A stretch of 64,000 nucleotides of DNA from an uncultured Prevotellaceae bacterium (GTDB lineage: Bacteria; Bacteroidota; Bacteroidia; Bacteroidales; Bacteroidaceae). The DNA lies in the NCBI GenBank assembly GCA_900315095.1, contig OMXS01000013.1, positions 26,337-90,336 of the forward strand, given 5' to 3'. This document shows positions 6,928-59,061 of the stretch, piece by piece (positions within the stretch are counted from its first letter, which is position 1; every line of letters starts with the position of its first letter). Below the pieces are notes generated by a model. The model was not told where the DNA came from, did not search any database, and was given only the letters and a program-made list of their open reading frames with translations. The position numbers were made by a program, and so were the translations under genes.

Positions 6928-7106
6928 ATAGTTGTACTTTTTTTGCGCATTATACAAGTCATTATAGTTCATATGGGAGAAATCGTTAGTTTTACATATT
7001 AATAATATGTTGTTTTACTCTACATTTGGGTGACAAAGAATAAAAGATTGGGGAATATACAATAATACCTTATATCTCTATTGTATGTGTTTCATGGTTG
7101 AGTCAT

Positions 7107-7172
7107 ATATCAGTCGCATCCCAAAGGCATATCAGTCGCATCTCAAATACGTATCTATCGCTTCCTCATTGG
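7107..7172. repeat. 22-nt period tandem repeat, three units
   Basis: Units at 7107-7128, 7129-7150 and 7151-7172. The first two share ATATCAGTCGCATC at their start; the third is degenerate. One of six spacers in the window with this period. Confidence 0.7.
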
Positions 7173-7599: not shown

Positions 7600-7608
7600 C
7601 AGAAACAA

Positions 7609-7763: not shown

Positions 7764-7800
7764 AATCTTTGTTCGTGCTCTTTCCACGGGGATGGAGGGT

Positions 7801-9870
7801 ATGGAAACTAAGAAAATCATGTGCAAAGTGCTTAGATATTGCGTAGCATTAATGGTGCTTCTTACCGTCCAAATAGCATACGGACAGCAGAAGAAAAGCC
7901 GCCTCGACAGCATTCAGAGTGTCGGGGAGGTGGTGGTGACATCGCGACTTACATTCCGCGAGGTGATCCCGTCGCACACGATGAAGGGCGAGCAACTGCA
8001 ACGCCTGAACACTCATAACATCGCAGACGCATTGCGCTATTTCGCTGGCCTTCAGTTGAAGGACTACGGAGGAGTGGGCGGTATCAAGACGGTGAATATC
8101 CGTTCGATGGGCAGCAATCACCTCGGCATCTTCTACGACGGCATACAGTTGGGAAACGCGCAGAACGGTCAGGTGGACCTGGGACAGTTCTCGATGGACA
8201 ATGTTGACGAGATAACACTTTACAACGGACAGAAGAGCGCCATCTTCCAACCTGCATCGGAGTTCGGCAACGCTGGTTCGGTGTATATCAAGACACGCCG
8301 CCCGAAGTTTACCGATGGCAAGAGAACAAACCTGAAGTTCAAGACGAAATACGGTTCGAGCGACCATTTCCGTTTCTCCGCATTGTGGGAGCAGAAGATT
8401 TTACGCATGCTTACGAGTTCTGTTAATGCTGAGTTTCTTAACTCTAGTGGCAAGTACGATTTTCGTTACCGTCGTAAGAATGCCGATGGCACCGTGGCTT
8501 ACGATACTACTGCCACCCGTCAGAACGGCGATATCTGGGCATTGCGTGCCGAGGCTAACATCTACGGCATCTTCAACGAAGGTGGGTGGAACATGAAGGC
8601 CTACACTTACCATTCTAAGCGCGGTATACCAGGAGCGATAGTGAACAATGTGTGGCGCCGCGGCGAGCGACAGTCAGACCATAACACCTTTGTTCAGGCA
8701 TACGTAAACAAGAGCATAGGGCAGAAATACAGCACCCGCTTGCTCACCAAATATGCCTATTATAACACCCACTATATCAATCGCGACACCACCACGTTGC
8801 GCGTTGATAATACCTACCGTCAGCAGGAATTCTTCGTGTCGTCGTCCCACGTCTATGAGATACTGCCGTTCTGGAGTGCCAGCGCTGCGTACGATTTCAA
8901 GTGGAATAAACTGAATGCTGACATGAAGAACTTTGTGCGCCCTCATCGTATCAGTCATTACGCTTCTATCGCCACCGCATTCAACCACCCGTGGTTCAAT
9001 GCACAAGGTTCGTTGATGGTTCAGTATATAAGCGACACCCGCCATCCTGCTGCTAGTCAACAGCCATCTACCATCACCAAACATCAGTCGGCCTTGACGC
9101 CCGCAATATTCATAAATGCCTACCCGCTGAGGAACAAGGTGTTGTCTTTGCGTGCCTTCGCAAAGAAGAGTTACCGCATGCCAACATTCAACGACCTCTA
9201 TTACACCGACCTTGGAAATGCTTTACTGAAACCAGAGACAGCATTGCAATACGACTTTGGATTTGTCGTTGAAAAGCAATTCCAGAACTTGTCATCTAAT
9301 GCACGCCGTCCTGTAATACAGCGCATAAGGTGGCAAACGGACATATACTATAACAGCGTCCATGATAAGATTGTGGCATATCCTAAGGGACAGCAGTTTC
9401 GTTGGACAATGCTCAACCTCGGAAAGGTGCATATCAAGGGAATCGATGTAGAGGCTGAGATTGACACCGAGCCGTGGAAAGACGTGCGGTTGTCGGGCCG
9501 TGTGCAATACACTTATCAGGATGCACGTGATGTTACCGACCCTAATACTCCGTACTACAACGACCAGATACCATATATTCCTTGGCACAGCGGTTCGGCA
9601 ATTGTGGGAGTGGGTTACAAGCAATGGGATTTCAACTACAGTTTCCTTTATGCAGGCGAGAGATACAACCAGCAGGAGAATATCATCTACAACTACATGC
9701 AACCGTGGTACACCAGCGACCTGTCGTTGAGTTACCGTTTCAACTATTGGGGTTGTCAGTTCAAGGTGCTGCTTGAGGTGAACAATGTGTTCTCGCAGGA
9801 TTATGACGTCATCCTTAACTACCCGATGCCAAAGAGAAATTACGGCATTTCGCTGGATGTGAAGATATAG
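7801..9870 (+). CDS. btuB: TonB-dependent outer-membrane receptor for cobalamin
   Basis: About 689 aa from METKKI; an alternative ATG at 7792 adds MEG. A signal peptide ends near AYGQ. The mature N-terminus has a plug domain (residues ~45-170: GEVVVTSRLTF, the TonB-box area, then TVNIRSMGSNHLGIFYDGIQL), and the rest is a 22-strand-type barrel ending in an aromatic-rich strand with terminal KI. It would import cobamides across the outer membrane using TonB energy. The cobalamin riboswitch directly upstream and btuG directly downstream fix the substrate better than the protein sequence does. There is no SusD partner. Confidence 0.9.
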   Translation: METKKIMCKVLRYCVALMVLLTVQIAYGQQKKSRLDSIQSVGEVVVTSRLTFREVIPSHTMKGEQLQRLNTHNIADALRYFAGLQLKDYGGVGGIKTVNIRSMGSNHLGIFYDGIQLGNAQNGQVDLGQFSMDNVDEITLYNGQKSAIFQPASEFGNAGSVYIKTRRPKFTDGKRTNLKFKTKYGSSDHFRFSALWEQKILRMLTSSVNAEFLNSSGKYDFRYRRKNADGTVAYDTTATRQNGDIWALRAEANIYGIFNEGGWNMKAYTYHSKRGIPGAIVNNVWRRGERQSDHNTFVQAYVNKSIGQKYSTRLLTKYAYYNTHYINRDTTTLRVDNTYRQQEFFVSSSHVYEILPFWSASAAYDFKWNKLNADMKNFVRPHRISHYASIATAFNHPWFNAQGSLMVQYISDTRHPAASQQPSTITKHQSALTPAIFINAYPLRNKVLSLRAFAKKSYRMPTFNDLYYTDLGNALLKPETALQYDFGFVVEKQFQNLSSNARRPVIQRIRWQTDIYYNSVHDKIVAYPKGQQFRWTMLNLGKVHIKGIDVEAEIDTEPWKDVRLSGRVQYTYQDARDVTDPNTPYYNDQIPYIPWHSGSAIVGVGYKQWDFNYSFLYAGERYNQQENIIYNYMQPWYTSDLSLSYRFNYWGCQFKVLLEVNNVFSQDYDVILNYPMPKRNYGISLDVKI

Positions 9871-11172: not shown

Positions 11173-11209
11173 AGTGAGGGAGTGATTAGCGTCTAATCAC
11201 TCCCTCACT
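11173..11209 (+). terminator. 17-bp hairpin after btuG
   Basis: AGTGAGGGAGTGATTAG (11173-11189) pairs perfectly with 11193-11209 around the loop CGT. There is no long T-tract; the right arm runs into the 22-nt repeat array. Confidence 0.65.
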
Positions 11210-11271
11210 TGTGTCTCCTGAGGTTGTCACTTGTGCCTTCTGAGGTTATCACTTGTATCTCCTGAGCATAC
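11206..11271. repeat. 22-nt period tandem repeat, three units
   Basis: Units at 11206-11227, 11228-11249 and 11250-11271, each starting CACTTGT and containing a CTCCTGAG or CTTCTGAG core. Located between the convergent btuG and lipoprotein genes. Confidence 0.75.
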
Positions 11272-11354
11272 ATAAAGCATGCCCCTATACGTTGAGAAAG
11301 TAAAACCGTTTGAATATCCCTATGGTCCTGATGGTCCATAGAGCGCCCCAGCAC

Positions 11355-12014
11355 TTAATTATTCACCGTCAGCACTCGACGCACGCCCGTGTCAACGTAT
11401 GAACAACGGTAACGCTTGAGTTTACGGTCGCTGCTTTTGCCGTTCTCTGCCACGATGCCTCCATTGTTCATGTCATATACTCGTTTGCAGGTGTTGCATG
11501 TGGCAAAGCCGATGTCTGACATCGAGAGAATGTGGTGCGAGGAGTTATCCTCATAACAGTTAGGACAAAGAGCATCGAAGGCATAGAGTTCGCCGCTAAG
11601 GTTGCCATAGCCCACAATAATGCCGCTGGAGTTTGAAATGCCGAGAATACGGGTGCGACGTTCATCTTCAATGTTCATTACCGCCTCGGAAGTCAAACCG
11701 CGGTTGCTTTCAAAACCGAACTTCTTGCCAGCCTTTGTGTATATACGGCAGAAGGTACCTGGTGATGTGGCTATTAGAGCACTCGTAAGCGTGGGGTCGT
11801 TATGCTGAGCGTTGTCGAACACGAAATAGCAACTGTTGTTGCTGTACTCGAACTCAGAGTTAGAGCAGGATATGAGAAGGAAAACGAGCCCCAAGCATAT
11901 ATAACCCACTTTAAGCCTCTCCCCAAAGGAGGAACTTGAGGCGCATAAAGAGTTCTTGACACTTGTTAGGGTGTTCCTTACCATATTGTACGTAACGTGT
12001 ATAAGACTATTCAT
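11355..12014 (-). CDS. Lipoprotein with a Rieske-like fold bearing two CxxC pairs
   Basis: A 219-aa frame. A hydrophobic stretch ending LLISC (about residue 50) is a lipobox, so the mature protein is probably anchored in the membrane. Near the C-terminus FDALCPNC and FATCNTCKRVYDM resemble the two cluster-binding loops of Rieske proteins, but Cys replaces both His ligands, so it is unlikely to hold a classical 2Fe-2S cluster and may be a zinc knuckle or structural relic. The N-region is unusually long because residues ~20-34 are encoded by a palindromic repeat (11911-11953); the true start could be the later Met at 11984. Function unknown. Confidence 0.65.
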   Translation of the reverse strand: MNSLIHVTYNMVRNTLTSVKNSLCASSSSFGERLKVGYICLGLVFLLISCSNSEFEYSNNSCYFVFDNAQHNDPTLTSALIATSPGTFCRIYTKAGKKFGFESNRGLTSEAVMNIEDERRTRILGISNSSGIIVGYGNLSGELYAFDALCPNCYEDNSSHHILSMSDIGFATCNTCKRVYDMNNGGIVAENGKSSDRKLKRYRCSYVDTGVRRVLTVNN

Positions 12015-18375: not shown

Positions 18376-18416
18376 CAAAGTTACTCATTTTTCCAATGTA
18401 TACCAAACGTTTGGTA
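18376..18416 (-). promoter_or_regulatory. Promoter with a 16-bp palindromic operator over the -33 box
   Basis: On the minus strand TTTG, a 20-nt spacer and TAACTTTG (18383-18376) form a promoter 20 nt before the ABC binding-protein gene. The -33 TTTG lies inside TACCAAACGTTTGGTA (18401-18416), a perfect 16-bp palindrome, so a dimeric repressor bound there would block RNA polymerase. Confidence 0.65.
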
Positions 18417-18422
18417 ATCTTT

Positions 18423-18510
18423 TTACATGTGGCTTATAATAGTGTTACATGTGGCTTGTAATAGTGTTACATGTGGCTTGTAACAACATTACAGACGGTT
18501 TGTAATAATA
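18423..18510. repeat. 22-nt period tandem repeat, four units
   Basis: Units at 18423, 18445, 18467 and 18489. The first three share TTACATGTGGCTT and the fourth starts TTACAGACGGTTTGTAA. Each unit has weak dyad symmetry (TTACA...TGTAA). Lies just upstream of the operator at 18401-18416. Confidence 0.8.
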
Positions 18511-20391: not shown

Positions 20392-23300
20392 TTACTTAAC
20401 CACTACCTTGCGAACGCTGCCGTCCTTCATGCGGACAACCTCGATGCCACGATGGTTCTTGTCAATAATCTTCTTTCCGTCGAGAGTGTAACGACCCTCG
20501 ATGTTCTCGTCGTCAGCGTTGAACTCGATGATGCCTGTGGTAACACTCTTCGATACGTTGTATCTCACATATTGTGTCTTACCGCGCTGTGTTGCGCTGA
20601 TGACTATCTCAAAGTCCTTAGCGTCATTGGTGTCAACAGTAAGTACATCACCCTCGAGACTTACTATGCCTGCAAGTTCCTCGGGCAGAGCGTCAGCGAT
20701 GGCATATGTCACCGTGCCTTGCTCGTCAAGAGTGAATGCTTCGGCGATACTTGCTGTCGTACCCTCGGTAATCTCAAGCGTTGCAGTTGTCTCTGGTCTC
20801 TTGTCACCAAGATTGTCAAGACAGAAGTAAGTGGCTGTTGTGAGGCCCCAACTGTTCTTGCGTGATCCGTCGAACGAGAATGAGAGGTTCTTCACCGTGC
20901 CTAACTTACTGAGGTCTATCCACTGCCATGCGTCGAGATAGTAGCGGTCGGCCTCCTGTACTGCACGATAGTCTGCAAGATAATACTCCGTGCTATTGCC
21001 GTTGTCAGCGGTGATGGTCAGTTTGAACCAGTCACCTTGCTTGAATACGCCGTCGGTCATGCCGTCGCCATTGAGGATATTGTCAACAACCCATGCGTCG
21101 TTGGTGATATACATTCCAGGAATAACATCACCATCGGCGTTGTTCATGACATATATCTTGCCACCCTGCGGGTATGCCACAACGTAGTTCTCCGAACCAT
21201 TTACGCCTCCTCCAACAGCATTGTTGAACTGGTCAGTAACGTATGTGCTGAACGAAGTGCTTGTGGTGTTAGCGTACATGAAGTCATAGAAGTAAGACCA
21301 TTCAGGCATACAGCCGTTATCGAACTTGAATGAACCGCTCACGAATGAGCCAAGCTGTAGGTTCTCGCCTCTCTCGAAGCTCTCCTCTGGGAGGTAGAGT
21401 TTCTCGAAGTCAGCCACCTGAAGGTCACCTGTTACGATAGCGCGAACAGTTGCTGTGTCGCCCTTCTCTGCTGCATCGGTGACAACGAAGATGTAGTCGG
21501 TACACTCGGTAGGAGTATCCGCTGTCATGAAGATGTCATCAATGTCATCTGCACTCTCGAAGGTCTCGGTGAGCAGCACGTTGTGCTTGCTGTCCATCCA
21601 TGTGAGAGTGTAAGGAGCGGTGCGCTCGTCAACGAGTACCATTGCCATAAGGTTAACGGTCTCTCCTGATGCAATGGTCTCCTCTTCGGTTGAATTGTTG
21701 ATGTAAACCTCAGCCTCTGGAGCATCGGTTACAGGAGGAGTAACGTCCATTGTGAATGCTGTTGTCTGGCTGGTGCTTTCTGCATCGACGCCGCGCAGAC
21801 TTACAGGCAGGAAGTATGCGATGTACTCGGCATTGTCTTCAAGACCTTCCACCTCGATGATGGCCTCAGCATTGGCAGCTACGTCCTTCTTCGTCTCGCT
21901 TGCCTTCAGTTCTTCTGCTGTAGGAGCGGTCTCGTCAGACTTCTTCACGATATAGTAAACAGTAGACGCGAGGTCGGTCTTCACTGAGAACGAAGCCTTG
22001 CCGTCAAGATGAGTGATTACCTGTGGATAGCCATCCTGCATAACAGGAGCGCTCATTGCGTTCGGGTCATACTCGTAAGCACCGATGGTGATGTTCTCTG
22101 CCGGACGCTCCTTGCCGTTGATGTCGGTGGTGACGTATGCAAGAGCCTTTGCTGTGAGCAGGTCACCGTCGAGGTCGTTGGCTGGCTCCAGAATCTCGTT
22201 GCTCAGGAATGTCACTTGCTTGTTGATACTTCCCGTTGCACCTGTTGCTGCCACGAAAGCGTCGAAGTCGCCAGTAGTGCTCGATGAAGCACGGAAGAAT
22301 GTCTCGCCACTTGTATAGATGACGTTGTTCTGGAAGTTAATTTTGTCTATTCCCAGATTAGCGTCGTTATAGAGGTTAACGGCATAGCCGCTGGTCTCGT
22401 TCTGGATGATATTGTTCACCACGTTCACGTTACCATAGCCGTCGTCCAGTTTTGACGAAGCCCAGAAGGCAGCACCGCCCTCGGTACCTGTCATGCGGAT
22501 GGTGTTGTATGCCACGTTCACGTTCTTTACCTTTGTACCGTTAAACTTGAAGGCTGCGTAGCTGGCACTGAGCGAAGCCAGGTTAATGACGTTGTTGGCA
22601 ATCAGCACAGGAGCCTCAGCCTTACCTTCCAGTTGGCGAAGGTTCATTACGGCAGCGTAGGTCTTTGGTGCTACGTTGAAGATGTTACCAGTGATTTCAG
22701 TTGCCTCGTCATATTCGTCGCGCAGTTGCATGTCAAGGATGCCCACGCTTATCTTTGTCTCTGCATCGGCGTCAATGGTAACGGTGTTGTTCTTAATCTT
22801 CACACCCAGTTCGTCCATTACATAGATAGCCTTCGTACCATTGTTTTTGAAGGTGTTGCCTTCAATCACACCGCCCGCTTCCTTAGGCAGCGCAAGGTAA
22901 GTAGTTCCACCCATAGAGACACCTATTTTACCGCCTTCGAGCAGACAGTTCTTCACGGTGAGATAGTCGTTGTTCTTGTTCTCCTCGTCGATAATGGTGT
23001 GTCCCACAAGACAAACATCCTCGCCCGTGATAGTGCATATCGGAGCATGCAGGTAGCAGTTGTCTATGGTAGCATGACGACTCTCGTCCTTTACCATCAC
23101 CACAGCCTTATATGCCTTGTCGGTAGTGTAGATTTCGAGGTTCTTCAGCGTGACATAGTTGGCTTGGTAGAGCGTCACAACACCGTAGTCTTTCTTATGC
23201 TGGTCGTCGCTGTAACCGCCTGTGGTGTAGTTGTTATGATATATCTTAACGTCACGCTCGCCGCTCTCGCTCTCAATGGTGAGAGTGTTCACGCCACCCA

Positions 23301-26300
23301 TTCCCTTGATGTTAGGAATGCGCACCTTCTCGTTATAGTCGCCTGCCTTGATCTTCAGAGTCACCGCACCGTCCATACCAAGTACACCGATATCGTCAAT
23401 GGCACCTTGAATGGTAGCATAGTCACCACCTTGTCCTACGGTATAAGTTCCGCTCTTTCCGCTTGCAACAGTGAATGTGGCAGTAACGGGTTCTTCCATT
23501 GGGATTGTTGTGCCGTCAACAGTGATGCTGTTCAGCGTTGCAGAAACTTCTGTTCCTACCGAAGCATCAGCCTTCACGTCGTATGTAAGCCAGAAGTAGT
23601 AGGTTCCAAACTTTGTTACTGAATAGCTGCCGTTGAATTCCTCGTTGGCAGAGAAGGTTGTAGTAGTGCCCGTCTGATAGATGTGGTAGTTCTTAACAGC
23701 CTCGCCGTCGGTTCCTGTGATGTCGAACGCGGTAATCTCAACAGGTGTGAGGTCACCCTTTGCCTCTACCATAATCTTCAGCATCTTGGTGTCGGTCTGT
23801 CCCTTCAGTACCTCGTTGGTGCTGATGTCTTCGGCGGTAACGCCAGTAACCACCACGTCGGTCTTCTTGTAACCTTCAACCAACATTGCGAAGTTAGGTT
23901 TGATGTAGCTGCCCTTGCCTATATATTTTATAGTAATCTTGCCACCATTGACATCGGCGTCAGAGATGATTGGGTCGAACTTAGCAGACGAACCACTAAG
24001 GTCGATGATTTGATTCTCATCGAGTTCCTCACTGCCTTCGTATATATATAGGTGTGCTGTTGATGAGAAGTCGATACCCTTGTCGGTAAGCCTAATGCAG
24101 TCGGCATCGCCAGTAGGAGCGAAAGTGATGGTGGCAGTCACACCATCGGCACCGTCACCCTCTGGACCGCCGTCGTCATAGAGGTTAACTATCTGTCCCA
24201 GTCCAAGACTAACAGTACCGTGGAAGCCTTGAGTCATCAGAATCTGGTTCTTCAGAGTGCGCTCACCCTCCGGGTCGCCGTTTGCAACTTCAACCTCAGA
24301 GCCTGCATTGACAGACACCAGTTTTGCATCGATGGTGCTGTTTTCTTCTGCGTCAGCCTTTACATCTACTTTCACCGTGAAGATATTGTCACCCTCTGCA
24401 AGGGCTACGGCTTCAGAAAGAGTTACTGTTACCTCGGCTGCTGCGGTTGCCTCGCCGAGTTTTGTATCGTCTTGCCAAACACTAACATTTGAAATGTTAG
24501 CCTCAGTACCTTTAAGGTTAATCTTCATGCTGCTCAACTGCAGAGCCTCGAGATTGCCTTCGGTCTTAACATTAACGTTCAGAAGATCCTGCTCGTTAGC
24601 ACCTATTGAAGCGTTGGCAGTGCTTGCCTGCTCTACCTCAACACCCGTCACTGCCATTGGCTTCGAGAGATATTCGCTGACAGTGGCTTTGAATCCCTTA
24701 TAATAATATGAATAAGAAGACTTTGGATTAAAGACGATTGTAAGAGAACCGTCGGCAGCAGTAGAACGGATGGTCTTTCCAGGACCTGTTGACTCCTGGT
24801 CGTTGCTGTTGAGTTCCCACAACAGTTCTCCGCTTGTGCCTTGTCCTGCATAAATCTTGAAGGTAGACTTGTTTCCATAACTTGAAGAAGCATACTGCAC
24901 GTTGAACTCCGAGAAGTCTATCTGTGTCACCATACCCTCATGCTTCGGAATGAAGATGTTGATACGGTCGTCGGTTCCTGCCTCGCAGTACGAACTGTAA
25001 GTGCCTGCTGTCTTGGTGTAGAAGTCGATGGAACCGTTCACGGTCTTGGTCACAGTACCTTGGTCAGCATGTGAAACCACCTCGTTCTTCACCATGCGGT
25101 CGGCAATAGTGCCATCGCTGACGTTCTCAGTCTTTGCAGAGCCGTTGACAAGTGCAGTAACGCTAACAACCTCGGCGCTTACGAACTCACTGTTCAGAGC
25201 CTCTTCGCTGATGTCATACTTCAGCGTGAACACGTTCTCGCCCTCTACAAGTGTTTGCGGAGTGGTGAGAGTTATCTCGAAGTTGTCGGCATTTACCTCA
25301 GCCTCGCCCACCTTTGTTGTTCCGAAGTAAAGCGATGCCTTGCTTATGAGAGCATAGGTGTCATCGGCAGAGAATGCCATCTTCTGCACCTGCATTGCTG
25401 GTTCTGTATCCTTTGCCTTGACAGTGATGGTAAGAATGTCCTGCTCGGTGTCGCCAGCGGCAACAGTTTCTGTAGAGGCTACTGCAGATGTTATGCCGTC
25501 GAAGTCCATTGGCTGTGGCACAAAGAGACTTACCTCTGCCTCAAATCCGTCGTAGTCGTAGTCTTGCGATGCGGCCTCAAGCACAACGGTCATCGACCCG
25601 TCTTCAGCGGTAGAGCGCACGATGCCTGTCTCTCCGTTAAGTTTCTCGGCAATCAGATTCGCCGCTGTGGCCTCAGTTCCATTGTAGAACTTAAGTGTCT
25701 GGTGATACATGCTGCCGTTGTTAATAACGAGTTTCGACAAGTCAACCATCACTTTCTTGCCTTCAACACCAGAAAGGAATGTCACCTGACCGCTTGCAGT
25801 ACCCTTAATGCTGCCGTCCTTGCCGCCTTCGTCATAGAACTGCAGCGGTGTCTCGCCAACGGTTATTGTCTGCGGTGTCGATGTCATGATGACAATGGCG
25901 GGATTCTCTACTGCAACTGATGTGCCGGCGGTGAACGGAGTTACGCCTTCGGGCTGTCCTTCGGTGGCAATCTTCGTAACGTCGAGTTGCACCTTCGCGC
26001 CTATCTCGGCAGTTCCGAGAATGTCGCCCTTTATGATGAAGTTGTTGGTGCCGTCGCTCAGTGCCTGATTCAGGGCGAACTTATAGCCGCTTCCCTCTTC
26101 AGTGACAGCAGCGTCAATGGCAGCGTCGCCATAATAGAGTTTCAGGGCTGTGGGTTCCACCATGCCCTCGTTCTGTGTCAAATTGAATGAGATTGATGTC
26201 ACCTTGTCGGGGTTCATCACACCCTCGGCGGTGACGTAAGCTGTTGCAAGGTCAACGTCCTGCTTCTTTGTAATTGTTGCAGAAACATTGTCGTAGTTTG

Positions 26301-26895
26301 AACCAGCACCAGTTACAGTCATGTTCTCCAAGGTAACGCATTTTACCGTTGCTTTCCAACCCTTGCACTTCTTAGCATAGACATAAATAAATCCTACAGC
26401 CATGCTGCCGTCTGCGGCTTCAGAGACATAGGTTTCGGGAGTTGTGGACGTGTAGGCCTCGCTATTCTTCATGCCGCCACGTGTGACGAGTACATTGCCG
26501 TCAGGAAGTGAAGAATTCTTATTCACATCAGACGCCTGAGTCGCCCATGTGAAACCCTCGTCGGATGGTGTTCCGCTATACACTTTCATGTAAGCGGGAT
26601 AACTGCCAGAAGACATATCGGGGATGATGTCAATCTCCTCGAAGGTGATTTGAATAGACTTTCCTGCTTCTGCGGGCGTAAACACTGTCAACGACTGTGA
26701 GTTGCTGGAGTTGGCTGACGGAATGTCGTCATTCCCCATGAAGTCATAGAACGTAATCACCTCATCAGAAGCAACAGTAATAGTCTGCTTCCCGAATTGC
26801 AACTGATTGACTTCGCGGTCGGCAAATGCCTCGAGAGGCACACCGAGCAGCATCGTCATCAGAAGAAACAATGATGATAGTACTTTTTGTTTCAT
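20392..26895 (-). CDS. Giant secreted multi-domain protein in a cobalamin-riboswitch operon
   Basis: A 2167-aa protein with a signal peptide ending near EAFA. Four alternating pairs come first: CUB-like domains (about residues 35-186, 336-455, 611-746, 890-1010; each with an ADGS or ANGG-type motif and a final aromatic strand) and BNR-associated/sialidase N-terminal-like beta domains (about 187-325, 459-605, 746-880, 1011-1145). Then a pectinesterase-type right-handed beta-helix (about 1145-1610; GQGGDYATIQGAIDDIG, GAYEYDP), Fn3/Ig-like domains (about 1610-1820), a DUF4465-like domain (about 1830-2028; FDGSRKNSWGLTTATYFCLDN) and the shared C-terminal tail. It follows the 369-aa gene by 38 nt, so the riboswitch at 28262-28101 should control it. 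Not recognised as a described whole; a surface scaffold or cobamide-linked adhesin is inference. Confidence 0.85.
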   Translation of the reverse strand: MKQKVLSSLFLLMTMLLGVPLEAFADREVNQLQFGKQTITVASDEVITFYDFMGNDDIPSANSSNSQSLTVFTPAEAGKSIQITFEEIDIIPDMSSGSYPAYMKVYSGTPSDEGFTWATQASDVNKNSSLPDGNVLVTRGGMKNSEAYTSTTPETYVSEAADGSMAVGFIYVYAKKCKGWKATVKCVTLENMTVTGAGSNYDNVSATITKKQDVDLATAYVTAEGVMNPDKVTSISFNLTQNEGMVEPTALKLYYGDAAIDAAVTEEGSGYKFALNQALSDGTNNFIIKGDILGTAEIGAKVQLDVTKIATEGQPEGVTPFTAGTSVAVENPAIVIMTSTPQTITVGETPLQFYDEGGKDGSIKGTASGQVTFLSGVEGKKVMVDLSKLVINNGSMYHQTLKFYNGTEATAANLIAEKLNGETGIVRSTAEDGSMTVVLEAASQDYDYDGFEAEVSLFVPQPMDFDGITSAVASTETVAAGDTEQDILTITVKAKDTEPAMQVQKMAFSADDTYALISKASLYFGTTKVGEAEVNADNFEITLTTPQTLVEGENVFTLKYDISEEALNSEFVSAEVVSVTALVNGSAKTENVSDGTIADRMVKNEVVSHADQGTVTKTVNGSIDFYTKTAGTYSSYCEAGTDDRINIFIPKHEGMVTQIDFSEFNVQYASSSYGNKSTFKIYAGQGTSGELLWELNSNDQESTGPGKTIRSTAADGSLTIVFNPKSSYSYYYKGFKATVSEYLSKPMAVTGVEVEQASTANASIGANEQDLLNVNVKTEGNLEALQLSSMKINLKGTEANISNVSVWQDDTKLGEATAAAEVTVTLSEAVALAEGDNIFTVKVDVKADAEENSTIDAKLVSVNAGSEVEVANGDPEGERTLKNQILMTQGFHGTVSLGLGQIVNLYDDGGPEGDGADGVTATITFAPTGDADCIRLTDKGIDFSSTAHLYIYEGSEELDENQIIDLSGSSAKFDPIISDADVNGGKITIKYIGKGSYIKPNFAMLVEGYKKTDVVVTGVTAEDISTNEVLKGQTDTKMLKIMVEAKGDLTPVEITAFDITGTDGEAVKNYHIYQTGTTTTFSANEEFNGSYSVTKFGTYYFWLTYDVKADASVGTEVSATLNSITVDGTTIPMEEPVTATFTVASGKSGTYTVGQGGDYATIQGAIDDIGVLGMDGAVTLKIKAGDYNEKVRIPNIKGMGGVNTLTIESESGERDVKIYHNNYTTGGYSDDQHKKDYGVVTLYQANYVTLKNLEIYTTDKAYKAVVMVKDESRHATIDNCYLHAPICTITGEDVCLVGHTIIDEENKNNDYLTVKNCLLEGGKIGVSMGGTTYLALPKEAGGVIEGNTFKNNGTKAIYVMDELGVKIKNNTVTIDADAETKISVGILDMQLRDEYDEATEITGNIFNVAPKTYAAVMNLRQLEGKAEAPVLIANNVINLASLSASYAAFKFNGTKVKNVNVAYNTIRMTGTEGGAAFWASSKLDDGYGNVNVVNNIIQNETSGYAVNLYNDANLGIDKINFQNNVIYTSGETFFRASSSTTGDFDAFVAATGATGSINKQVTFLSNEILEPANDLDGDLLTAKALAYVTTDINGKERPAENITIGAYEYDPNAMSAPVMQDGYPQVITHLDGKASFSVKTDLASTVYYIVKKSDETAPTAEELKASETKKDVAANAEAIIEVEGLEDNAEYIAYFLPVSLRGVDAESTSQTTAFTMDVTPPVTDAPEAEVYINNSTEEETIASGETVNLMAMVLVDERTAPYTLTWMDSKHNVLLTETFESADDIDDIFMTADTPTECTDYIFVVTDAAEKGDTATVRAIVTGDLQVADFEKLYLPEESFERGENLQLGSFVSGSFKFDNGCMPEWSYFYDFMYANTTSTSFSTYVTDQFNNAVGGGVNGSENYVVAYPQGGKIYVMNNADGDVIPGMYITNDAWVVDNILNGDGMTDGVFKQGDWFKLTITADNGNSTEYYLADYRAVQEADRYYLDAWQWIDLSKLGTVKNLSFSFDGSRKNSWGLTTATYFCLDNLGDKRPETTATLEITEGTTASIAEAFTLDEQGTVTYAIADALPEELAGIVSLEGDVLTVDTNDAKDFEIVISATQRGKTQYVRYNVSKSVTTGIIEFNADDENIEGRYTLDGKKIIDKNHRGIEVVRMKDGSVRKVVVK

Positions 26896-26933: not shown

Positions 26934-28043
26934 CTAGTTATTTAGGAAAACTTTTCTTACGCTGCCGTCACTCATCTTTATGATGTTAAGGCCGCGCTGC
27001 GGAGTAGCCATACGGATGCCGTCTGCACCATATCGTGCCACCTCTGTCACTTCTCCATTGCCATAAACGCCATTTATTCCCGACGCGATAATAGCATCGA
27101 TAGATGCCTCAAGATGCAGGTCGTGCGCTCCTACCACCTCCGTGGAGGTCTCGCCCAACTGAGGCACCACTTGATTCATGCCGTTATATATACGCACAAA
27201 GTCTATGAAGTCGAGGTCTTTGGGTTGTCTGTTCTCGTCCACCGCCCAGCTGATATCAATAGAACACCCTTCTTCGTTGCTATTTGGCAGGTTATCGGCA
27301 TAGCCGTAACGGAGGAACATCAGCACCCATTGCTTGTTGTACATATCGTGTTCAAGGAACCATGCGTTCCTTGGCAGCCGTGTTCCGCTGAAGGTGAGGT
27401 TATCCTCAAGCCAACAAGGGTAGTACTCCTGTGGGTGGCCAAATGCGTCCATACGCGGGATAACGCCATTGTTCCCATGATTGTCTGTCCAGGGAATATC
27501 ATTCATGGGATTCTTCTTATATGTAATGCTATAAGCATAATCCACCTTCCCCACACTGTCCACATCGGCAGAGCCGCTGATTTCGTACCAAGGGTCATCG
27601 GGCAGGTTATTGTGGTTAATGTCCTTTGAGACCATAACGATACCAGGCTCGCTAGAACCGCCAAAGGCATCGGGGAACATCTTGCTCTGCATTGAATTGC
27701 CGCGGATGCAGAAGTCGCGCTGACCGCTGATGTTGGCAATGCTATGGTCGAAATGGAATGTGACGTAGCCGCCATAACCACCCAGCGAAATCATGCTGTG
27801 GTCATCGTCGGCGTAGTCGCCGGCAATGGATGCCGTGCATTTTGCGGCCATCGCGGCTGCATCGTCGCCTTCTTCCCATTCAGGTATGTCATTAATAAAC
27901 TGTCCCGGAGCGGGCACATACTCATCTACAGCCAGGATATACTGGCTATGTTCAGCGTCATCGGTCATCTGCTGCGCTTGTAGCGGCGATACACTGACAA
28001 CTGCTATAAGGCATACCAATGCCCCAATAGCTGATTTTTTCAT
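26934..28043 (-). CDS. Secreted surface protein of the Bacteroidetes B12-uptake accessory type
   Basis: A 369-aa protein starting MKKSAIGALVC (signal peptide to LQAQ); the ATG at 28070 adds nine polar residues close to the riboswitch and is less likely. Family-typical phrases are EYVPAPGQFIND, SLGGYGGYVTFHFDHS, SSEPGIVMVSKDINHNNLPDD and IDISWAVDENRQP followed by FIDFVRIYN. Similar proteins are encoded beside btuB/btuG in Bacteroides. No enzyme motif is evident. The C-terminus (YGADGIRM, PQRGLNIIKMSDGSVRKVF) is the shared tail, so it is probably exported and attached outside. First gene after the cobalamin riboswitch at 28262-28101, with the giant gene next. Confidence 0.8.
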   Translation of the reverse strand: MKKSAIGALVCLIAVVSVSPLQAQQMTDDAEHSQYILAVDEYVPAPGQFINDIPEWEEGDDAAAMAAKCTASIAGDYADDDHSMISLGGYGGYVTFHFDHSIANISGQRDFCIRGNSMQSKMFPDAFGGSSEPGIVMVSKDINHNNLPDDPWYEISGSADVDSVGKVDYAYSITYKKNPMNDIPWTDNHGNNGVIPRMDAFGHPQEYYPCWLEDNLTFSGTRLPRNAWFLEHDMYNKQWVLMFLRYGYADNLPNSNEEGCSIDISWAVDENRQPKDLDFIDFVRIYNGMNQVVPQLGETSTEVVGAHDLHLEASIDAIIASGINGVYGNGEVTEVARYGADGIRMATPQRGLNIIKMSDGSVRKVFLNN

Positions 28044-28100
28044 GTCTTTTTCTTTTAAATCATCTTCCACGTCCTCCTCGAGACAGGAAAGAATAAATTT

Positions 28101-28262
28101 GGTGAGGGGCAGGTCTTCTGACTTGTTGCCGATGCAAACGTCTTCCCGAAAAGTTCAGTGACGCATTAGTTTGCACCATGAAGGGCAACTCACAGCTGCG
28201 GGACAGTTCTGGATTTCCACCTGATTCCCATTTTAATCGCTTGTACAGCGAACCCAACACGT
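28101..28262 (-). promoter_or_regulatory. Cobalamin riboswitch upstream of the 369-aa and giant genes
   Basis: Read on the minus strand it has GGGAATCAGGTGGAAATCC, the CTGTCCCGCAGCTGTGA core, a GTCACTG block, TCGGGAAGACG and the B12 box AAGTCAGAAGACCTGCC. It ends about 58 nt before the preferred start at 28043. Confidence 0.95.
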
Positions 28263-28271
28263 TTCTGGGAG

Positions 28272-28302
28272 CAAAGTTACGAAAAGTAAAGCGAAATGCA
28301 AA
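28272..28302 (-). promoter_or_regulatory. Promoter of the second cobalamin riboswitch
   Basis: Minus strand: TTTG (28302-28299), 19 nt, TAACTTTG (28279-28272), ten nt before the aptamer. Confidence 0.75.
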
Positions 28303-28603: not shown

Positions 28604-29383
28604 TTATTCAACCTCGTAGGTCAGGTCGTCAATGCAGACATACGAAGGAGTGTTAAGTCCCCAGCTGCCCTTGTCTGTTCCGTCAAAGGTGAAAGTCAGG
28701 ACCTTCACTCTACCCAGAGAACTCAGGTCGAGCCATTTCCAGTCTTTCACAACTGTTACGCCTGTGCGATAATCAGCAGGATAGAAATCAACGCTCTTGC
28801 CGTTGTCGGCGGTAACAGTAACCTTCAAGTAGTCACCAGTTTCAAACTTCTTGGCATAGCTGTCGCCGTTCTCAACAGAGTTAACTAGATAAGAAGAGTT
28901 AGTGAAGAAGAAACCTTTCACGTTCACTCCCTTGGTGTTGCTAACAGTTATAGTGGCTGCCTGGCCGTATACTACGGCAAACTGCTTTCCATCGTGAGCC
29001 TTGCCAGTAACGTTGTTGAACTGGTCTATGGTTAGATTAGTAGCCGAGAAACCTGTGGCTGTGCGGTTAGAAATGCCGAAGCCCATGAAGCTAAAACCAT
29101 AGCTAGATACAGTGTAAGAAGTATTGAAACTCAAATCTTTCTCTGCATACGAGCAGATGTAAGTGGTGCCGCCCCATTCATCAGAGACGCCCGTTCCGTT
29201 CTCTTCACCCATCCAGAATCCCTGCTCATTGAGTTTCTGGTTTTCAAACGAGATAACTTCTGTTTTAATCTTGTCATCGATGACTGCACTATCTTTGTCG
29301 TCATCACTACACGAAGTAATTAAAACTGGTACTCCGATAAGGGCGAGAACCATAAGGCTCTTCAAAATGCTTTTTGTTTCCAT
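28604..29383 (-). CDS. DUF4465-like lipoprotein under cobalamin control
   Basis: A 259-aa lipoprotein with signal peptide and lipobox LITSC (Cys 25) followed by an Asp-rich linker. The body is one DUF4465-like beta domain (about residues 45-259): ISFENQKL, DQFNNVTG, the GKQFAVVYG strand, FFFTNSSYLVNSV, FYPADYRTG and FDGTDKGSWGLNTPSYVCIDD. The same order of motifs is seen at residues ~1830-2028 of the giant protein. It has its own promoter and cobalamin riboswitch. B12-binding accessory lipoproteins (BtuH) are known from Bacteroides uptake loci; a similar role here is plausible but unproven. Confidence 0.82.
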   Translation of the reverse strand: METKSILKSLMVLALIGVPVLITSCSDDDKDSAVIDDKIKTEVISFENQKLNEQGFWMGEENGTGVSDEWGGTTYICSYAEKDLSFNTSYTVSSYGFSFMGFGISNRTATGFSATNLTIDQFNNVTGKAHDGKQFAVVYGQAATITVSNTKGVNVKGFFFTNSSYLVNSVENGDSYAKKFETGDYLKVTVTADNGKSVDFYPADYRTGVTVVKDWKWLDLSSLGRVKVLTFTFDGTDKGSWGLNTPSYVCIDDLTYEVE

Positions 29384-29518
29384 TGAAAATATAATTTAAC
29401 TTGTTAATGAAATCAAGACATGTTTACCGTTTCCAAGAATACGGCATTACATTTCATCGTTATAGTTTTTAAATTACCTCTTCTGCGTCTTCCTCGAGAC
29501 AGAGAAAATTAAAGATGA

Positions 29519-29700
29519 AAGGCAGGTCTTCTGACTTGTTGCCGATGCAAACGTCTTCCCGAGAAATGCTTATTAATGACTCAGCGCTCAACAATACTCT
29601 CAGTGACGTTGTGTTTGCACCATGAAGGACAACTTACAGCTGCGGGACAGTTCAGGATTCACACCAGATTCCCTTTTAATCACTTCGCAAGTGAACCAAT
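29519..29700 (-). promoter_or_regulatory. Cobalamin riboswitch upstream of the DUF4465 lipoprotein
   Basis: Minus strand: GGGAATCTGGTGTGAATCC, the CTGTCCCGCAGCTGTAAG core, a GTCACTGAGAG block with an enlarged variable stem, TCGGGAAGACG, and the B12 box AAGTCAGAAGACCTGCC. The gap to the gene is about 135 nt and contains A/T-rich sequence. Confidence 0.95.
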
Positions 29701-29714
29701 CATGTAACCGATTG

Positions 29715-29745
29715 CAAAGGTATAACAAAAAACGGATACCGCAAA
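29715..29745 (-). promoter_or_regulatory. Promoter of the third cobalamin riboswitch
   Basis: Minus strand: TTTG (29745-29742), 19 nt, TACCTTTG (29722-29715). Confidence 0.75.
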
Positions 29746-33400: not shown

Positions 33401-34062
33401 GTGACTGTCATTCCCTCATGAGAGAACGTATCACCAACTGTGAATGTTGTGGGGTAATTACCTGATAATGTTATGCCCGTAAGAATCTTAGCGGGAGTGG
33501 AAGATTCCACTTTCTTATAAAAAGCCGTTTTTGTGTTCTGGATATTGCTATTAACCGATCCATAGCAACGCCAATCCACACTGTTATACACACCCAAGAA
33601 ACGCGAAGTGGAAACGTTCTTTAGATATTTGTCAGAACTATTAAATGTACTATTTGGATCGTTTTCAAATGTGAAAGTATTGTTCTCATTTGTGCCAACA
33701 CGAACACCATTGTTAGAATTAGTGCAATAGAGATAATTAGTAGTTTCACCACTTGTTACGCCAAACTTGTAGGAACCATTGTCAACAGTGACTTCCCATT
33801 GCAAATTTGCACCAACATCTGACGTAATTTGAGATTGATTGCCAAGTAAACTCACTGTTGTAGCCGCTGGGGCAGCAGAAGTTCCTTTGTCGTTAGACAT
33901 TGCCATTTTAGTGGTAAGGTCAACGATGACCACCACGTCACCAGTAACCAACTCCGATGGATCTGTCTTTACCCATGTGTCGGCCGCTGAAGCGACATTA
34001 ACTCCACCCACTACTATCATCAGTAGCGATAGGAATAAAGATTTTAAATAGGTTTGTTTCAT
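30406..34062 (-). CDS. Large secreted protein with Ig-like, beta-trefoil-like and shared unnamed modules
   Basis: A 1218-aa protein with a signal peptide ending near ASAAD. Three copies of a ~150-aa module with the pattern SLVTS/ALSEGDEVIIVN, KAMSSTQNSNNR, FTLEGNSEGWYF, YNSGSDIFSCYA and PVQIY (about residues 28-190 divergent, 278-430, 680-835) alternate with three Big_3-type Ig domains (ITLSGNYPTTFTVGD; about 195-275, 434-510, 514-592) and one Big_2 domain (about 594-678). Residues ~840-1070 are the module found twice in the 18625-20148 protein. The end (WYNLQGVKVTNPQRGIYI, HNGKKVVIK) is the shared tail. Promoter at 34183-34152. Likely a surface adhesin or glycan-binding protein; the target is unknown. 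Confidence 0.85.
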   Translation of the reverse strand: MKQTYLKSLFLSLLMIVVGGVNVASAADTWVKTDPSELVTGDVVVIVDLTTKMAMSNDKGTSAAPAATTVSLLGNQSQITSDVGANLQWEVTVDNGSYKFGVTSGETTNYLYCTNSNNGVRVGTNENNTFTFENDPNSTFNSSDKYLKNVSTSRFLGVYNSVDWRCYGSVNSNIQNTKTAFYKKVESSTPAKILTGITLSGNYPTTFTVGDTFSHEGMTVTANYDDNTSEDVTADATFDGYDMSIADTYDVTVSYTEREVTKTATYTITVNALTGDAYTLVTNADDLAEGDNVIIVNKAAGKAISTTQNNNNRGATVVTFDADNAIVPASTDIQVFTLEGNSEGWYFKTVNGEVSGYLYAASSDKNYLRTEAEKDNNNNAKASITISGDDADIKFQGTNTHNYLQYNSGNNIFSCYAGSQQPVQIYSKPVNKTLTGIMLSGEYPTTFFVGDEFSFGETGTVTAVYDDNSTKVVTDKATFTGYDMNTAGTQTVTVSYTERGVTKTKTYEITVNNRALSSITLSGDYPTTFNVGDEFSHEGMTVTAAYDNNTSEDVTADATFEGYDMSTAGTQTVTVSYTKADVTKTATYNITVNAVAVTGISLDVIEATLVVGQTKKINATIEPDNATVNLIWTSEDESVATVDQDGKVTAVGAGNIIIKAAAADNDDIFGACTIHVVELKTEPYSLVTSVSALSEGDEVIIVNTDAGKAMSSTQNSNNRAATGVTFDETGNALVSNSGEIQVFTLEGNSEGWYFNTGDGYIYAASNSSNHLKTEDEKNDNAKAVITITDEGTSVVFQRTNGRNVLQYNSGSDIFSCYASASQSPVQIYKKGATSATTYSLVVGEEETPFESLSLTKELPAHTQFYIKDNMGNEYHSADAQSELIIIAENHENLPTSADGKDFYLKKANTWVFTLTEASDGLMLTVSPETEGETKYMLSGYLQESNDVFDENLKLTKEMTSTTEEFYFTRSDDYGLTNLTPTTFNAPEDRRYWIFSEDDPTVEFIAGEIRGSYTVGEAGTYTFTIDLTNNTVTAEKTVEYVDLTISSYEWATFVTPSAVQFPDDVTAYIITEITGGNAKAEQITEAPAGTPVIVNGTAGVHKLLKVEDAVLDYTNMLQVSDGNVTGDGTIFVLAVEGGQPGFAPLANGKKLSAGKAYLQVDNASGAKINLIFDGESSDIRGIESTVDFSDGDWYNLQGVKVTNPQRGIYIHNGKKVVIK

Positions 34063-34151
34063 AGTTGTATTTGATTTTGTTATTATGTTATCTCGTTTGT
34101 TGCTATTTTTAAGCCTTTTCTTTTGTGCAAACGGTAAATGGTTTCAACATG

Positions 34152-34183
34152 CAAAGATACGAAACATTTCGGGGATATGCAAA
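34152..34183 (-). promoter_or_regulatory. Promoter of the 1218-aa gene and small-protein operon
   Basis: Minus strand: TTTG (34183-34180), 20 nt, TATCTTTG (34159-34152); about 85 nt of leader follows. Confidence 0.7.
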
Positions 34184-34303
34184 TAATTTGAGGTTTTTCT
34201 TACACTAAGCGCATGTATTTTGCAAGAATGTAAACATCTTTCGCAAACTCCGCTTGCCTGTGAGAAAATGCCGGACAGGACTTGTTAACATTTTGCTGTT
34301 GTG

Positions 34304-34480
34304 GTGACAGTTGACAGATTACAGTTTTAAAGTGACCCTATGGTGGCGACAGACAAGAAAACACGTATATATACGTATATATATTTATTATATATATAAT
34401 ATATATATTATATATATAATAAAACTTTCGGACAAGGTTTAGGGGGGCTTAAAATAAAACTGTAATCTGTCAACTGTCAC
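34304..34480. repeat. Inverted-repeat cassette with an alternating A/T core
   Basis: A 26-nt arm at 34304-34329 (GTGACAGTTGACAGATTACA...) is repeated perfectly, inverted, at 34455-34480, flanking about 70 nt of TA-rich sequence (34363-34431). A third perfect copy lies at 34721-34746 in the orientation of the second. Part of the gene-free stretch 34063-35323, which otherwise holds a REP-like element, a 22-nt array and a second cassette. Confidence 0.75.
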
Positions 34481-34543
34481 ACACCACCTTGTTTTGAATG
34501 TCTGCTGTCAGTTGTTTCTCCATTCGGTCAGCGACCGTTGGTT

Positions 34544-34682
34544 CCCCGCCCCTGAAGGGGAGGGGCCAGGGGTGGGGACTGTGTTGTCCTCTGTCTCCAT
34601 CTATCTACCCTTATCTCCATTTATCTTCTTCCTTTATATCACCGACCCCGCCCCTATCCCCGCCCCTACATGGGTGGGGAAC
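34544..34682. repeat. REP-like paired C/G-rich element, copy 2
   Basis: Same order as at 29803-29927: CCCCGCCCCTGAAGGGGAGG with GGGGTGGGG, an A/T-rich middle with TATCTTCTT and ATATCACCGAC, then CCCCGCCCCTATCCCCGCCC and ATGGGTGGGGAA. Confidence 0.75.
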
Positions 34683-34778
34683 CGTTAGCAATGGGGCTAA
34701 TTGTATATAGTATCCTAAAATAAAACTGTAATCTGTCAACTGTCACCGCTCACCTTGTTTTCGAGTGAAACAAGTGTA

Positions 34779-34866
34779 TATCTTTCGCCCTGCGATTAAG
34801 CATCTTTCGCCCCGCGAAACATGGCTTTTCGCACCGTCAAAGGGCATCTTTGGGACGTGCAGCACT
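34779..34866. repeat. 22-nt period tandem repeat, four units
   Basis: Units at 34779, 34801, 34823 and 34845. The first two share ATCTTTCGCCC and GCGA, and contain TTTCGC/GCGAAA dyad symmetry. Related in sequence to the array at 47333. Confidence 0.75.
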
Positions 34867-35006
34867 AGGCCCTCAGCCCTCTATCCCCCTTGCTATAACG
34901 GACTTGTAGGTTGACTTGAAAGCGCCTTCTTCTTTGTAGGCGCCATATAAACCACTTTGTTTCAGGGATTTACAAGATAATGGAAAGATAATTCGCATGG
35001 TGATGA

Positions 35007-35231
35007 TGGAAAAATTGGACATTTGGACATTTGGACAATTGGACAAATGCCCTTTTCTGGATTCAGGATTTTAGGTGTCTCATTCTTTATATTATATATA
35101 TATTATAATATATATATAATATAAAATATATATACATATATTTTTGTCAAAATCTTTCACTTACACTCAGTCCTCGCAACGGAAAATGTCTAAATGTCCA
35201 AATGTCCAATTGTCCAATTGTCCAATTTTGG
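35007..35231. repeat. Second inverted-repeat cassette with TA-rich core
   Basis: The left arm (35013-35047) is built of a 9-nt unit TTGGACATT or TTGGACAAT; the right arm (35185-35229) is its reverse complement (AATGTCCAA, AATTGTCCAA). Between them lies an alternating A/T tract (about 35088-35142). Same plan as 34304-34480 but with a different arm sequence. Confidence 0.7.
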
Positions 35232-35323
35232 TGATGGATGTTAGATGATGGATGATTGGTGATTGGTGATGGTGGTCAGAACTATGAACTATTAGCCAAC
35301 ACCAAACACCTATCACCTAAAAA

Positions 35324-47288: not shown

Positions 47289-47325
47289 CCGCCGATATTA
47301 ATTGCTAATATCAGCGGCTTTGTTT
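47289..47325 (+). terminator. Terminator after murI
   Basis: CCGCCGATATTA pairs with TAATATCAGCGG (one mismatch) around ATTGC, followed by CTTTGTTTT. It ends the envelope cluster. Confidence 0.8.
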
Positions 47326-47332
47326 TGCAATA

Positions 47333-47420
47333 TATGTCCTTTTGCTTTCCGATTGATGTCCTTTGGGCTTGCGAAAAGCCATCTTTCGCATCCTCATTGA
47401 TGCCCTTTGGGAATGCGATT
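47333..47420. repeat. 22-nt period tandem repeat, four units
   Basis: Units at 47333, 47355, 47377 and 47399, with shared CCTTTGGG and TGCGA cores; the third unit carries CATCTTTCGC. Shares CTTTxGxxxTGCGATTAA with the array at 34779. Lies between convergent murI and the permease gene. Confidence 0.75.
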
Positions 47421-47429
47421 AACGGTTAA

Positions 47430-58895: not shown

Positions 58896-58907
58896 TGCTT
58901 TTAAAAG

Positions 58908-59061
58908 TATCAAGTGAGAGTCTCAACTATATCAAGTGAGGGAACAATGTTATTAACTTTGTTGAACAAAGTTATTAAGATTGTTGAACAAAGTTATTAA
59001 CTTTGTCTCCCCACTTGTATACCTTTGAAAGGCAGATAGTTACAAGTGACATTTTCAGCAG
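58908..59061. repeat. 22-nt period tandem repeat, up to seven units
   Basis: Units start at 58908, 58930, 58952, 58974, 58996, 59018 and 59040. Units 1-2 share TATCAAGTGAG; units 3-4 share TTGTTGAACAAAGTTATTAA; unit 3 is a near-perfect palindrome (AACTTTGTT-G-AACAAAGTT). The last two are degenerate. Lies between the terminator and the GH97 promoter. Confidence 0.75.

Follow-up and report, generated by a model that had tools for sequence, protein, structure and literature searches.

The repeat arrays found between the genes of this DNA raise a simple question: what could keep a period of 22 nt when the sequence of the repeated unit changes from one spacer to the next? The stretch analyzed, hereafter called the window, covers 64 kb (G000:C20:26337-90336) and is part of a 3.24-Mb Prevotella source genome labelled G000. 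A preliminary description had claimed that six arrays of the window share the 22-nt period. We compared the self-identity of each array at lags of 15 to 30 nt and this claim was borne out, lag 22 being the best at all six. The values at this lag were 0.70, 0.80, 0.83, 0.55, 0.47 and 0.55 for the arrays at 7107, 11206, 18423, 34779, 47333 and 58908, respectively, and the second and third best lags gave only 0.31-0.38. TRF returned period 22 at five of these six sites, the one at 34779-34866 being absent from its list. Altogether, the 8.4 kb of intergenic DNA in the window contain seven lag-22 loci, whereas 200 Markov shuffles averaged 0.07 and never gave more than 2; the locus that comes in addition to the six arrays is a TA-rich run at 34374. 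The arrays are described in Table 1.

Table 1. Repeat arrays of the 64-kb window and the flank of the B element.
Feature	Position	Strand	Units	Context and remarks
B/C array	58899..59011	.	about 5	histidine-phosphatase-like gene on one side, GH97 gene on the other
Right flank of B element	59012..59061	.		inverted type-C half-sites CACTTGTATACCTTTG ... GTTACAAGTG
Type-D array	18411..18510	.	4, TTACA-N7-TGTAA plus 5-nt gap	unit 1 imperfect
Array	47318..47421	.	about 4.7	convergent gap, glutamate racemase / lolE; dyad not significant
Array	11201..11271	.	about 3.2, TCACTTGTGTCTCCTGAGGTTA	convergent gap; dyad not significant
Array	7101..7161	.	about 2.8, ATATCAGTCGCATCYCAAA...	dyad not significant
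Degenerate array	34773..34866	.	2-4, ATCTTTCGCCCYGCGAWW...	within a 1.2-kb repeat-rich gap

The B/C array consists of two type-C units (TATCAAGTGAG...) followed by three type-B units in a single register. The type-B consensus, AACAAAGTTATTAACTTTGTTG, is a perfect dyad. The dyad quoted earlier for this array, AACTTTGTT-G-AACAAAGTT, is indeed present, but at 58955-58973 instead of 58953-58971. The type-D array lies 54 nt upstream of a gene for a periplasmic binding protein, the array at 7101 precedes a cobalamin riboswitch by about 430 nt, and the unit family of the array at 11201 recurs at C26:100720 in G000. In the degenerate array, the stronger part spans 34773-34823 and a weaker one extends out to 34866. 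Dyad symmetry, which had been attributed to several of the units, was scored in five window arrays (all but that at 34773): it is clear in two of them (58940, p 0; 18412, p 0.02) and not significant in the other three (7103, 11202 and 47319; p 0.5-0.8).

We then scanned 842 kb of G000, of which 133.8 kb are intergenic according to a codon-usage gene caller, for windows with at least 17/22 identities. At lag 22, 43 such loci lie in intergenic DNA, and at lag 44 there are 32; coding DNA has none at either lag. The intergenic counts at lags 19, 20, 23 and 25 were 1, 8, 6 and 0. If low-complexity sequence is left in, short repeats produce peaks of their own at lags 14 (41 loci), 8 (28), 16 (23), 21 (18) and 28 (13); these lags are multiples of 7 and 8 and represent classes separate from the 22-nt arrays. 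Heptamer-period tandem repeats (lags 14, 21, 28, 35 and 42) are found in the intergenic DNA of other Prevotella as well as in that of G000, where the peaks at lags 8 and 16 also stand apart from the 22-bp arrays. Once low-complexity sequence was removed, 50 arrays were left in the 842 kb, which by extrapolation gives roughly two hundred intergenic arrays for a genome like G000.

The autocorrelation of intergenic DNA, which the preliminary description had put forward as a check, was extended to a pool of 114 sequences of the same GTDB family (3.34 Mb, 522 kb intergenic, low-complexity filtered). It peaks at period 22, with 145 arrays, and at period 44, with 93; no other period between 15 and 49 exceeds the 26 arrays counted at period 21. 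Coding DNA of the pool holds 7 arrays at period 22. A chance period is ruled out by the window shuffles, the lag spectrum of G000 and the period counts of the family pool. The lag-22 peak was found again in other Prevotella genomes. In the intergenic DNA of G483 (120 kb), lags 22, 44 and 66 gave 8, 7 and 4 loci, and the other lags between 10 and 66 at most 2. Of 12 genomes sampled from the family's other genera (20-40 kb each), seven have at least one lag-22 locus at 16/22 or more and five have none. Two such loci, one of them AT-rich, were seen in G507, and 12 in 40 kb of G486. In 19 other families of the order, represented by one 20-kb stretch each (380 kb, 53 kb intergenic), there were no arrays at 22 or at 44; 14.8 would be expected at the pooled rate, a figure that overstates the contrast between families since array density is uneven. 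With the filter off, a single AT-rich lag-22 locus (L253) appeared in these families. Among the families sampled, the arrays are thus restricted to one.

The units differ by species and by locus; the pitch does not. In G000, the units are of type B (GAACAAAGTTAATAACATAGTC) or type D (TTACAAACGGCTTGTAACNNNN), among others, and different ones are found in G044 (TTACCAGTGGCTGGTAAGGTGA), G028 (AATATAGGCTATTTTACTTTTC), G483 (CAAACACAAGTGTTTG and TAAGTATTATACTTA), G457 (GTTTCCCCAGTGGGAAACTTTT), G486 (AAAGCGCTGCCGCTTTCGGGGA) and G485 (TTATCACGTGTGATAA). Their distribution is patchy, with type B matched in 6 of 101 Prevotella genomes and type D in 6 of 20. The D pair occurs in G000, G028, G044, G118 and G261, G024 has four matches to a variant of it, and the other 14 of the 20 genomes lack it. 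Several motif families can be present together in one genome and even within one array: the two long arrays of G483, of about 13 units each, pass from CAAAC-type to AAGTAT-type and back to CAAAC-type palindromes with the 22-nt register kept. The units are nevertheless not unrelated at every locus: 39 of the 50 arrays found in 842 kb of G000 fall, by single linkage, into families of 29, 5, 3 and 2 members, leaving 11 singletons. The tails of several D arrays (e.g. L166, L171, L176 and L184) are similar to each other and carry, after the last TTGTAA, further palindromes with other arms, in the order TTCCAA..TTGGAA, then ATTCCAGAGAT..ATCTCTGGAAT, then CTTTGTATAAAG; to the eye, the 11-nt pitch seems to continue through them.

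Is there an internal organization common to these unlike units? Tested with column shuffles that preserve the period, 61 of the 133 non-B arrays had a dyad with p<=0.05 (51 of them with p<=0.025), as did 14 of the 29 B arrays, so that 72 and 15 arrays, respectively, fall short of p 0.05. In the 61 dyad arrays, the identity between neighbouring units reaches 0.81-0.83 at a distance of 5-6 nt from the axis and drops to its minima at the axis itself (0.46) and at 11 nt (0.45). This profile indicates half-sites of about 6 bp, centred evenly 11 bp apart on alternating strands. Changes in one arm tend to be matched in the other: 100 compensated unit pairs were counted against 62 expected (sd 12, maximum 96 over 300 shuffles). 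Over 1290 gaps without B elements, the dyad centres are spaced in a comb-like series of 11, 22, 33, 44, 55 and 66 nt (104, 72, 54, 56, 30 and 26 cases). The excess for unlike palindromes lies mainly at odd multiples of 11, which stems from the second axis of tandem palindromes and is thus not a separate proof of register. In the same gaps, palindrome centres also show a smaller second comb at 9, 18 and 27 nt (54, 40 and 34).

The distance between palindromes was then counted with explicit patterns. Pairs of the D palindrome TTACN9GTAA separated by exactly 5 nt gave 26, 38, 29, 20 and 27 forward matches in five Prevotella genomes, the 26 being those of G000, where the backward control gave 0. 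When the gap was widened to 1-12 nt, the counts were unchanged in all five genomes; that 140 of 140 pairs lie at 22 nt rests on these equal counts and on a gap of 5 in all of the matches listed. In G483, with gaps of 1-12 nt allowed, the gap is 6 nt in 27 of 27 CAAACN6GTTTG pairs, which are again 22 nt apart (the 13 matches of the backward control read the other phase of the same arrays). In G457, the gap between GTTTCN8GAAAC palindromes is 4 nt, which makes 22 nt, in 32 of 33 pairs, and 5 nt, which makes 23, in the last one. Pooling the three motif families, 199 of 200 neighbouring palindrome pairs are exactly 22 nt apart, pairs inside one array overlapping and not being independent loci. The pattern ATTCCC..GGGAAT, the motif of L115, L123 and L125, had no matches in four of four genomes and hence gave no pairs for this count. 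In fetched sequence, successive D palindromes were 22 nt apart 16 times, 44 nt five times and 31 nt once, and the sixteen five-letter gaps were all distinct. Gap letters vary in G483 as well, where 8 of the 27 pairs share a neighbour, CAAACTACTATGTTTG, and similar gaps and are thus probably copies of each other. The 4-nt gap of G457 is mostly AAAA or TTTT and the palindrome centre varies instead, so that the gap letters there are not free. Palindromes at a fixed helical-phase spacing with a free gap sequence, the arrangement of a cooperative operator array, are thus found for D and G483, with G457 departing in its gap letters.

These gaps bear on the explanation by a functionless mutational generator, in which slippage and quasi-palindrome template switching would have a preferred step of 22 nt. 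Such a process would yield tandem copies, dyads and compensated arms without any selection, and the length changes described below do tend toward 22-nt steps. However, it should not preserve a strict gap length of 5 or 6 nt when the letters inside the gap are changing, and it should also operate in the related families where no arrays were seen in 53 kb of intergenic DNA, even if the uneven density inflates that contrast. We thus consider it very unlikely. A simple generator would copy the gaps too. Copying accounts for dispersal, not for the ruler.

The behavior of the arrays over time could be followed in orthologous gaps. The nearest relatives of G000 among 399 genomes are G044 (85%) and G028 (87% identity), as judged from one gene. 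Among 76 orthologous gaps of G000 and G044, 6 carry an array in both species, 5 in G000 alone and 2 in G044 alone, and 63 have none (Fisher p 5e-5), and array positions are thus conserved between species. The units at such positions can differ. In the lolE gap, the G028 array is in register with that of G000, some units being common and others replaced, and G044 (L065) has an array of unrelated units. At C46:183667, the gap measures 204 nt in one species and 205 nt in the other, with two B and three C units in G000 and four B units in G044. The D units at C46:258986 are of the form TTACA..TGTAA in G000, whereas most of those in G044 have TTACC..GGTAA, a change on both arms that is also seen in most other G044 D pairs among the matches listed; G028 has some arrays of each kind. 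One G044 gap with a D array is 154 nt, or 7 x 22, longer than its array-less counterpart in G000, which implies that copying or loss plays a part. Among length differences of 10-300 nt between array-bearing gaps, 6 of 8 deviate from a multiple of 22 by no more than 2 nt (p 0.0025, the range having been chosen post hoc); with the upper limit removed, 6 of 12 do (p 0.035). A weaker excess is also seen for the gaps in which no array was detected (16 of 43, p 0.023), which reflects either decayed arrays or noise.

These data bring in the chief rival explanation, namely that the arrays are satellite-like mobile or concertedly evolving DNA: dispersed non-autonomous repeats, comparable to satellites or to MITE and REP elements, that spread, slip by 22 bp and are homogenized by conversion or re-insertion, the period being set by an enzyme or inherited from an ancestral unit. 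Copying by slippage, transposition or conversion clearly occurs, above all for the B element. By eye, B elements have common flanks at several loci, the flank at 59012..59061 resembling those of other B elements in G000 and G044, and a 154-base query (58908-59061) has 78 matches in the source genome, itself included, many of them overlapping and on both strands. The similar tails of several D arrays, the motif library shared by the two long arrays of G483 and its copy-like pairs, the in-register replacement of units between sister species, the 154-nt difference and the lengths near multiples of 22 can all be read in the same way. On the other hand, copies should have the same gaps, yet all 16 D gaps differ while arms and spacing are exact. 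A single pitch over unrelated motifs and genera would be unexpected for independent elements, and so would array positions that are conserved between species. We therefore regard mobile repeats as a possible but rather unlikely source of the period.

The only Y1 transposase (Y1_Tnp) found in G000, at C26:61492-61794, is flanked by an unrelated inverted repeat, GGGCGCACACGGTGGTACGCCC, and not by an array palindrome, and we thus rejected a REP/BIME system with RAYT for this genome. Within some 3 kb of the transposase there is no lag-22 locus at 16/22 or more, and one at 15. By eye, no GTAG/CGTC-type tag shared by the motif families was noticed at the foot of the palindromes. In the gap after lolE at L065, about 11290-11420, an inverted repeat GTAGGGGCG...CGCCCCTAC looks REP-like and is unrelated to the arrays. 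REP/BIME sequences with RAYT resemble the arrays in being dispersed intergenic palindromes with compensated arms and species-specific sequences, and the fixed 22-bp pitch sets the arrays apart (PMC3733652, PMC6006769). The nearest known relative in kin and form is BrickBuilt, a minisatellite MITE of Porphyromonas gingivalis, described as one 23-nt unit in 19 copies with a leader, a tail and IS5-like inverted ends (PMC4596501). Direct repeats of 22 nt and 41 nt are noted for P. gingivalis W83 in the same paper (PMC4596501). Like the arrays, BrickBuilt belongs to the Bacteroidales, is intergenic and tandem, lacks CRISPR-type spacers and is predicted to form stem-loops; it differs by its 23-nt period and single sequence (PMC4596501). 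In the family pool, 145 arrays lie at period 22 against 13 at period 23, and their units differ.

One would also wonder whether the arrays act as DNA or as RNA. Tandem transcript hairpins serving termination, 3'-end protection or processing would account for the many hairpin-like units with compensated arms, for a D array only 54 nt upstream of a gene and for the lowest array density of G000 being found in divergent gaps. In G000 alone, where arrays are few, the densities per kb of gap are 0.39 for co-directional, 0.27 for divergent (4 arrays) and 0.47 for convergent gaps. The pooled data do not agree: with 0.29 arrays per kb in co-directional, 0.36 in divergent and 0.48 in convergent gaps, divergent gaps are no poorer than co-directional ones. 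The 162 arrays are distributed over all orientations (45 in '--' gaps, 41 in '++', 34 divergent, 31 convergent and 11 at sequence ends). RNA hairpins tolerate G.U pairs, and no such preference was seen. Mismatched arm pairs were G.T in 53 cases and A.C in 49 overall, and on the sense strand of co-directional gaps (61 dyad arrays) 22 were G.T and 30 A.C. Single-strand DNA folding is exceptional only in the B array (58942-59007, z -7.0), the other five window arrays giving z -1.9 to +1.0, and the window arrays have no Rfam match. RNA-level elements are thus the least probable of the explanations considered here. The absence of a wobble bias, the presence in all gap orientations and the unexceptional folding indicate that the constraint most likely acts on double-stranded DNA.

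We also looked at the genes next to the arrays. By eye, from the translations, the neighbours of D arrays look unrelated (GroES-like, Fmt-like, asparagine-synthase-like and others), and we therefore rejected the view that D arrays mark a single gene regulon. Among 1408 proteins, 190 of which are array-side (loci other than L066-L144), no family stands out as clearly enriched next to the arrays. Three protein clusters have three array-side members: two correspond to the orthologous lolE and racemase neighbours, and the third (three of four members) to an orthologous pair plus one G000 paralogue. Unrelated neighbours and the lack of an enriched family make a general role, such as nucleoid anchoring or transcription insulation, likelier than a regulon.

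How do the arrays compare with known systems of repeated sites? CRISPR arrays have repeats of about 24-48 bp with unique spacers of similar size between them. The arrays have a 22-nt pitch and gaps of 4-6 nt, so that a CRISPR array is rejected by geometry, as had been said at the outset. Plasmid iterons are tandem sites about two helical turns apart on one face of the helix, at a single replication origin beside a rep gene. The G000 arrays differ in that 50 of them are scattered over 842 kb beside unrelated genes. In the library model of eukaryotic satellite DNA, the repeat length persists through the growth, shrinkage and mutual replacement of unit families. The fixed repeat length of the arrays is alike, unlike their small size of 2-13 units and their location in bacterial intergenic gaps. 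In phage repressor operator clusters of the lambda OR/OL type, several short operators stand side by side and are bound cooperatively. The stoperators of mycobacteriophages are spread over the phage genome and end transcription (PMC9283540). Phage systems of these kinds have one motif per phage and a known repressor gene, whereas the arrays combine many motif families with one pitch over a bacterial family. Operator clusters and stoperators are nevertheless what the arrays would, putatively, work like.

We propose, with a probability of roughly 55%, that the arrays are double-stranded DNA platforms for putative symmetric proteins that bind cooperatively. With half-sites of about 6 bp that alternate between the strands and recur once per 11 bp, all of them would look toward the same side of the helix. 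Each palindrome would be occupied by a dimer of a protein with two-fold symmetry, probably a small one of the helix-turn-helix or ribbon-helix-helix type; contacts between dimers on adjacent palindromes, 22 bp apart, may then lead to the cooperative coating of 2-13 units. The likeliest role would be a general one, either as a nucleoid or domain anchor or as a roadblock insulating neighbouring transcription units, and not the control of a single regulon. Units would be replaced, added and lost in steps of 22 bp, proteins and sites co-evolving with the pitch alone fixed. This proposal takes together the pitch, the dyads present in about half of the arrays, the compensation, the exact gap length with varying letters in two families, the conserved positions and the absence of any sign of RNA-level constraint. 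Indeed, an exact gap with varying letters and compensated half-sites at each helical turn are what cooperative symmetric binding along one face demands. Of the two ideas offered in the preliminary description, a nucleoid protein with spaced sites is thus the one that fits best, with its conserved arms, fixed-length gaps of variable letters and half-site per helical turn; a generator of pure tandem copies leaves the gap variation (16/16 in D) unexplained.

Several points count against binding platforms. No binding protein was found, and dyads are significant in only about half of the arrays. The patchy B elements (6/101) act like dispersed mobile or duplicated elements. Motif families that coexist would need several proteins, or one with relaxed specificity. 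The divergent gaps are the sparsest when G000 is taken alone (4 arrays, 0.27 per kb), and the smaller comb at 9, 18 and 27 nt lies beside that at 11 nt. The natural pitch of B-DNA would also favour 21 bp, not 22.

Beyond the individual arrays, one could tentatively see here a candidate family-wide system that organizes DNA or insulates transcription, with a conserved pitch (a half-site per 11 bp, a dimer per 22 bp), a free motif and a set of rapidly co-evolving proteins, in analogy with centromere satellites and the proteins associated with them. Should the arrays prove to be protein platforms, a genome-wide DNA-binding system of a large group of gut and rumen bacteria would have been missed by motif searches, since its sequence shifts between sister species while its geometry stays. 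It would then offer a bacterial model for the co-evolution of DNA-binding proteins and dispersed arrays, as well as candidate insulators that carry their own ruler. Were they mobile repeats instead, they would represent satellite-like bacterial DNA of fixed unit length, which is also unusual. The open-access literature that we searched holds no description of such arrays, and we consider them to be categorically new in kind, the conserved property being the pitch and not the sequence.

Some other features of the window deserve mention. Three cobalamin riboswitches (Rfam RF00174) are found within these 64 kb: the first (7595-7775, +) precedes a BtuB-like TonB receptor (7792-9870), the second (28091-28272, -) an ORF at 26934-28070 (-), and the third (29504-29715, -) a 259-aa DUF4465 protein (28604-29383, -). 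In the same region, a 2167-aa ORF at 20392-26895 (-) combines DUF4465, BNR-associated and beta-helix domains. Finally, the 1.2-kb gap at 34062-35256 contains two long TA-rich runs and AAAACTGTAATCTGTCAACTGTCA twice, and the octamer arrays TTGGACAT (35015-35045) and AAATGTCC (35184-35225), in inverted sense, flank a TA run.
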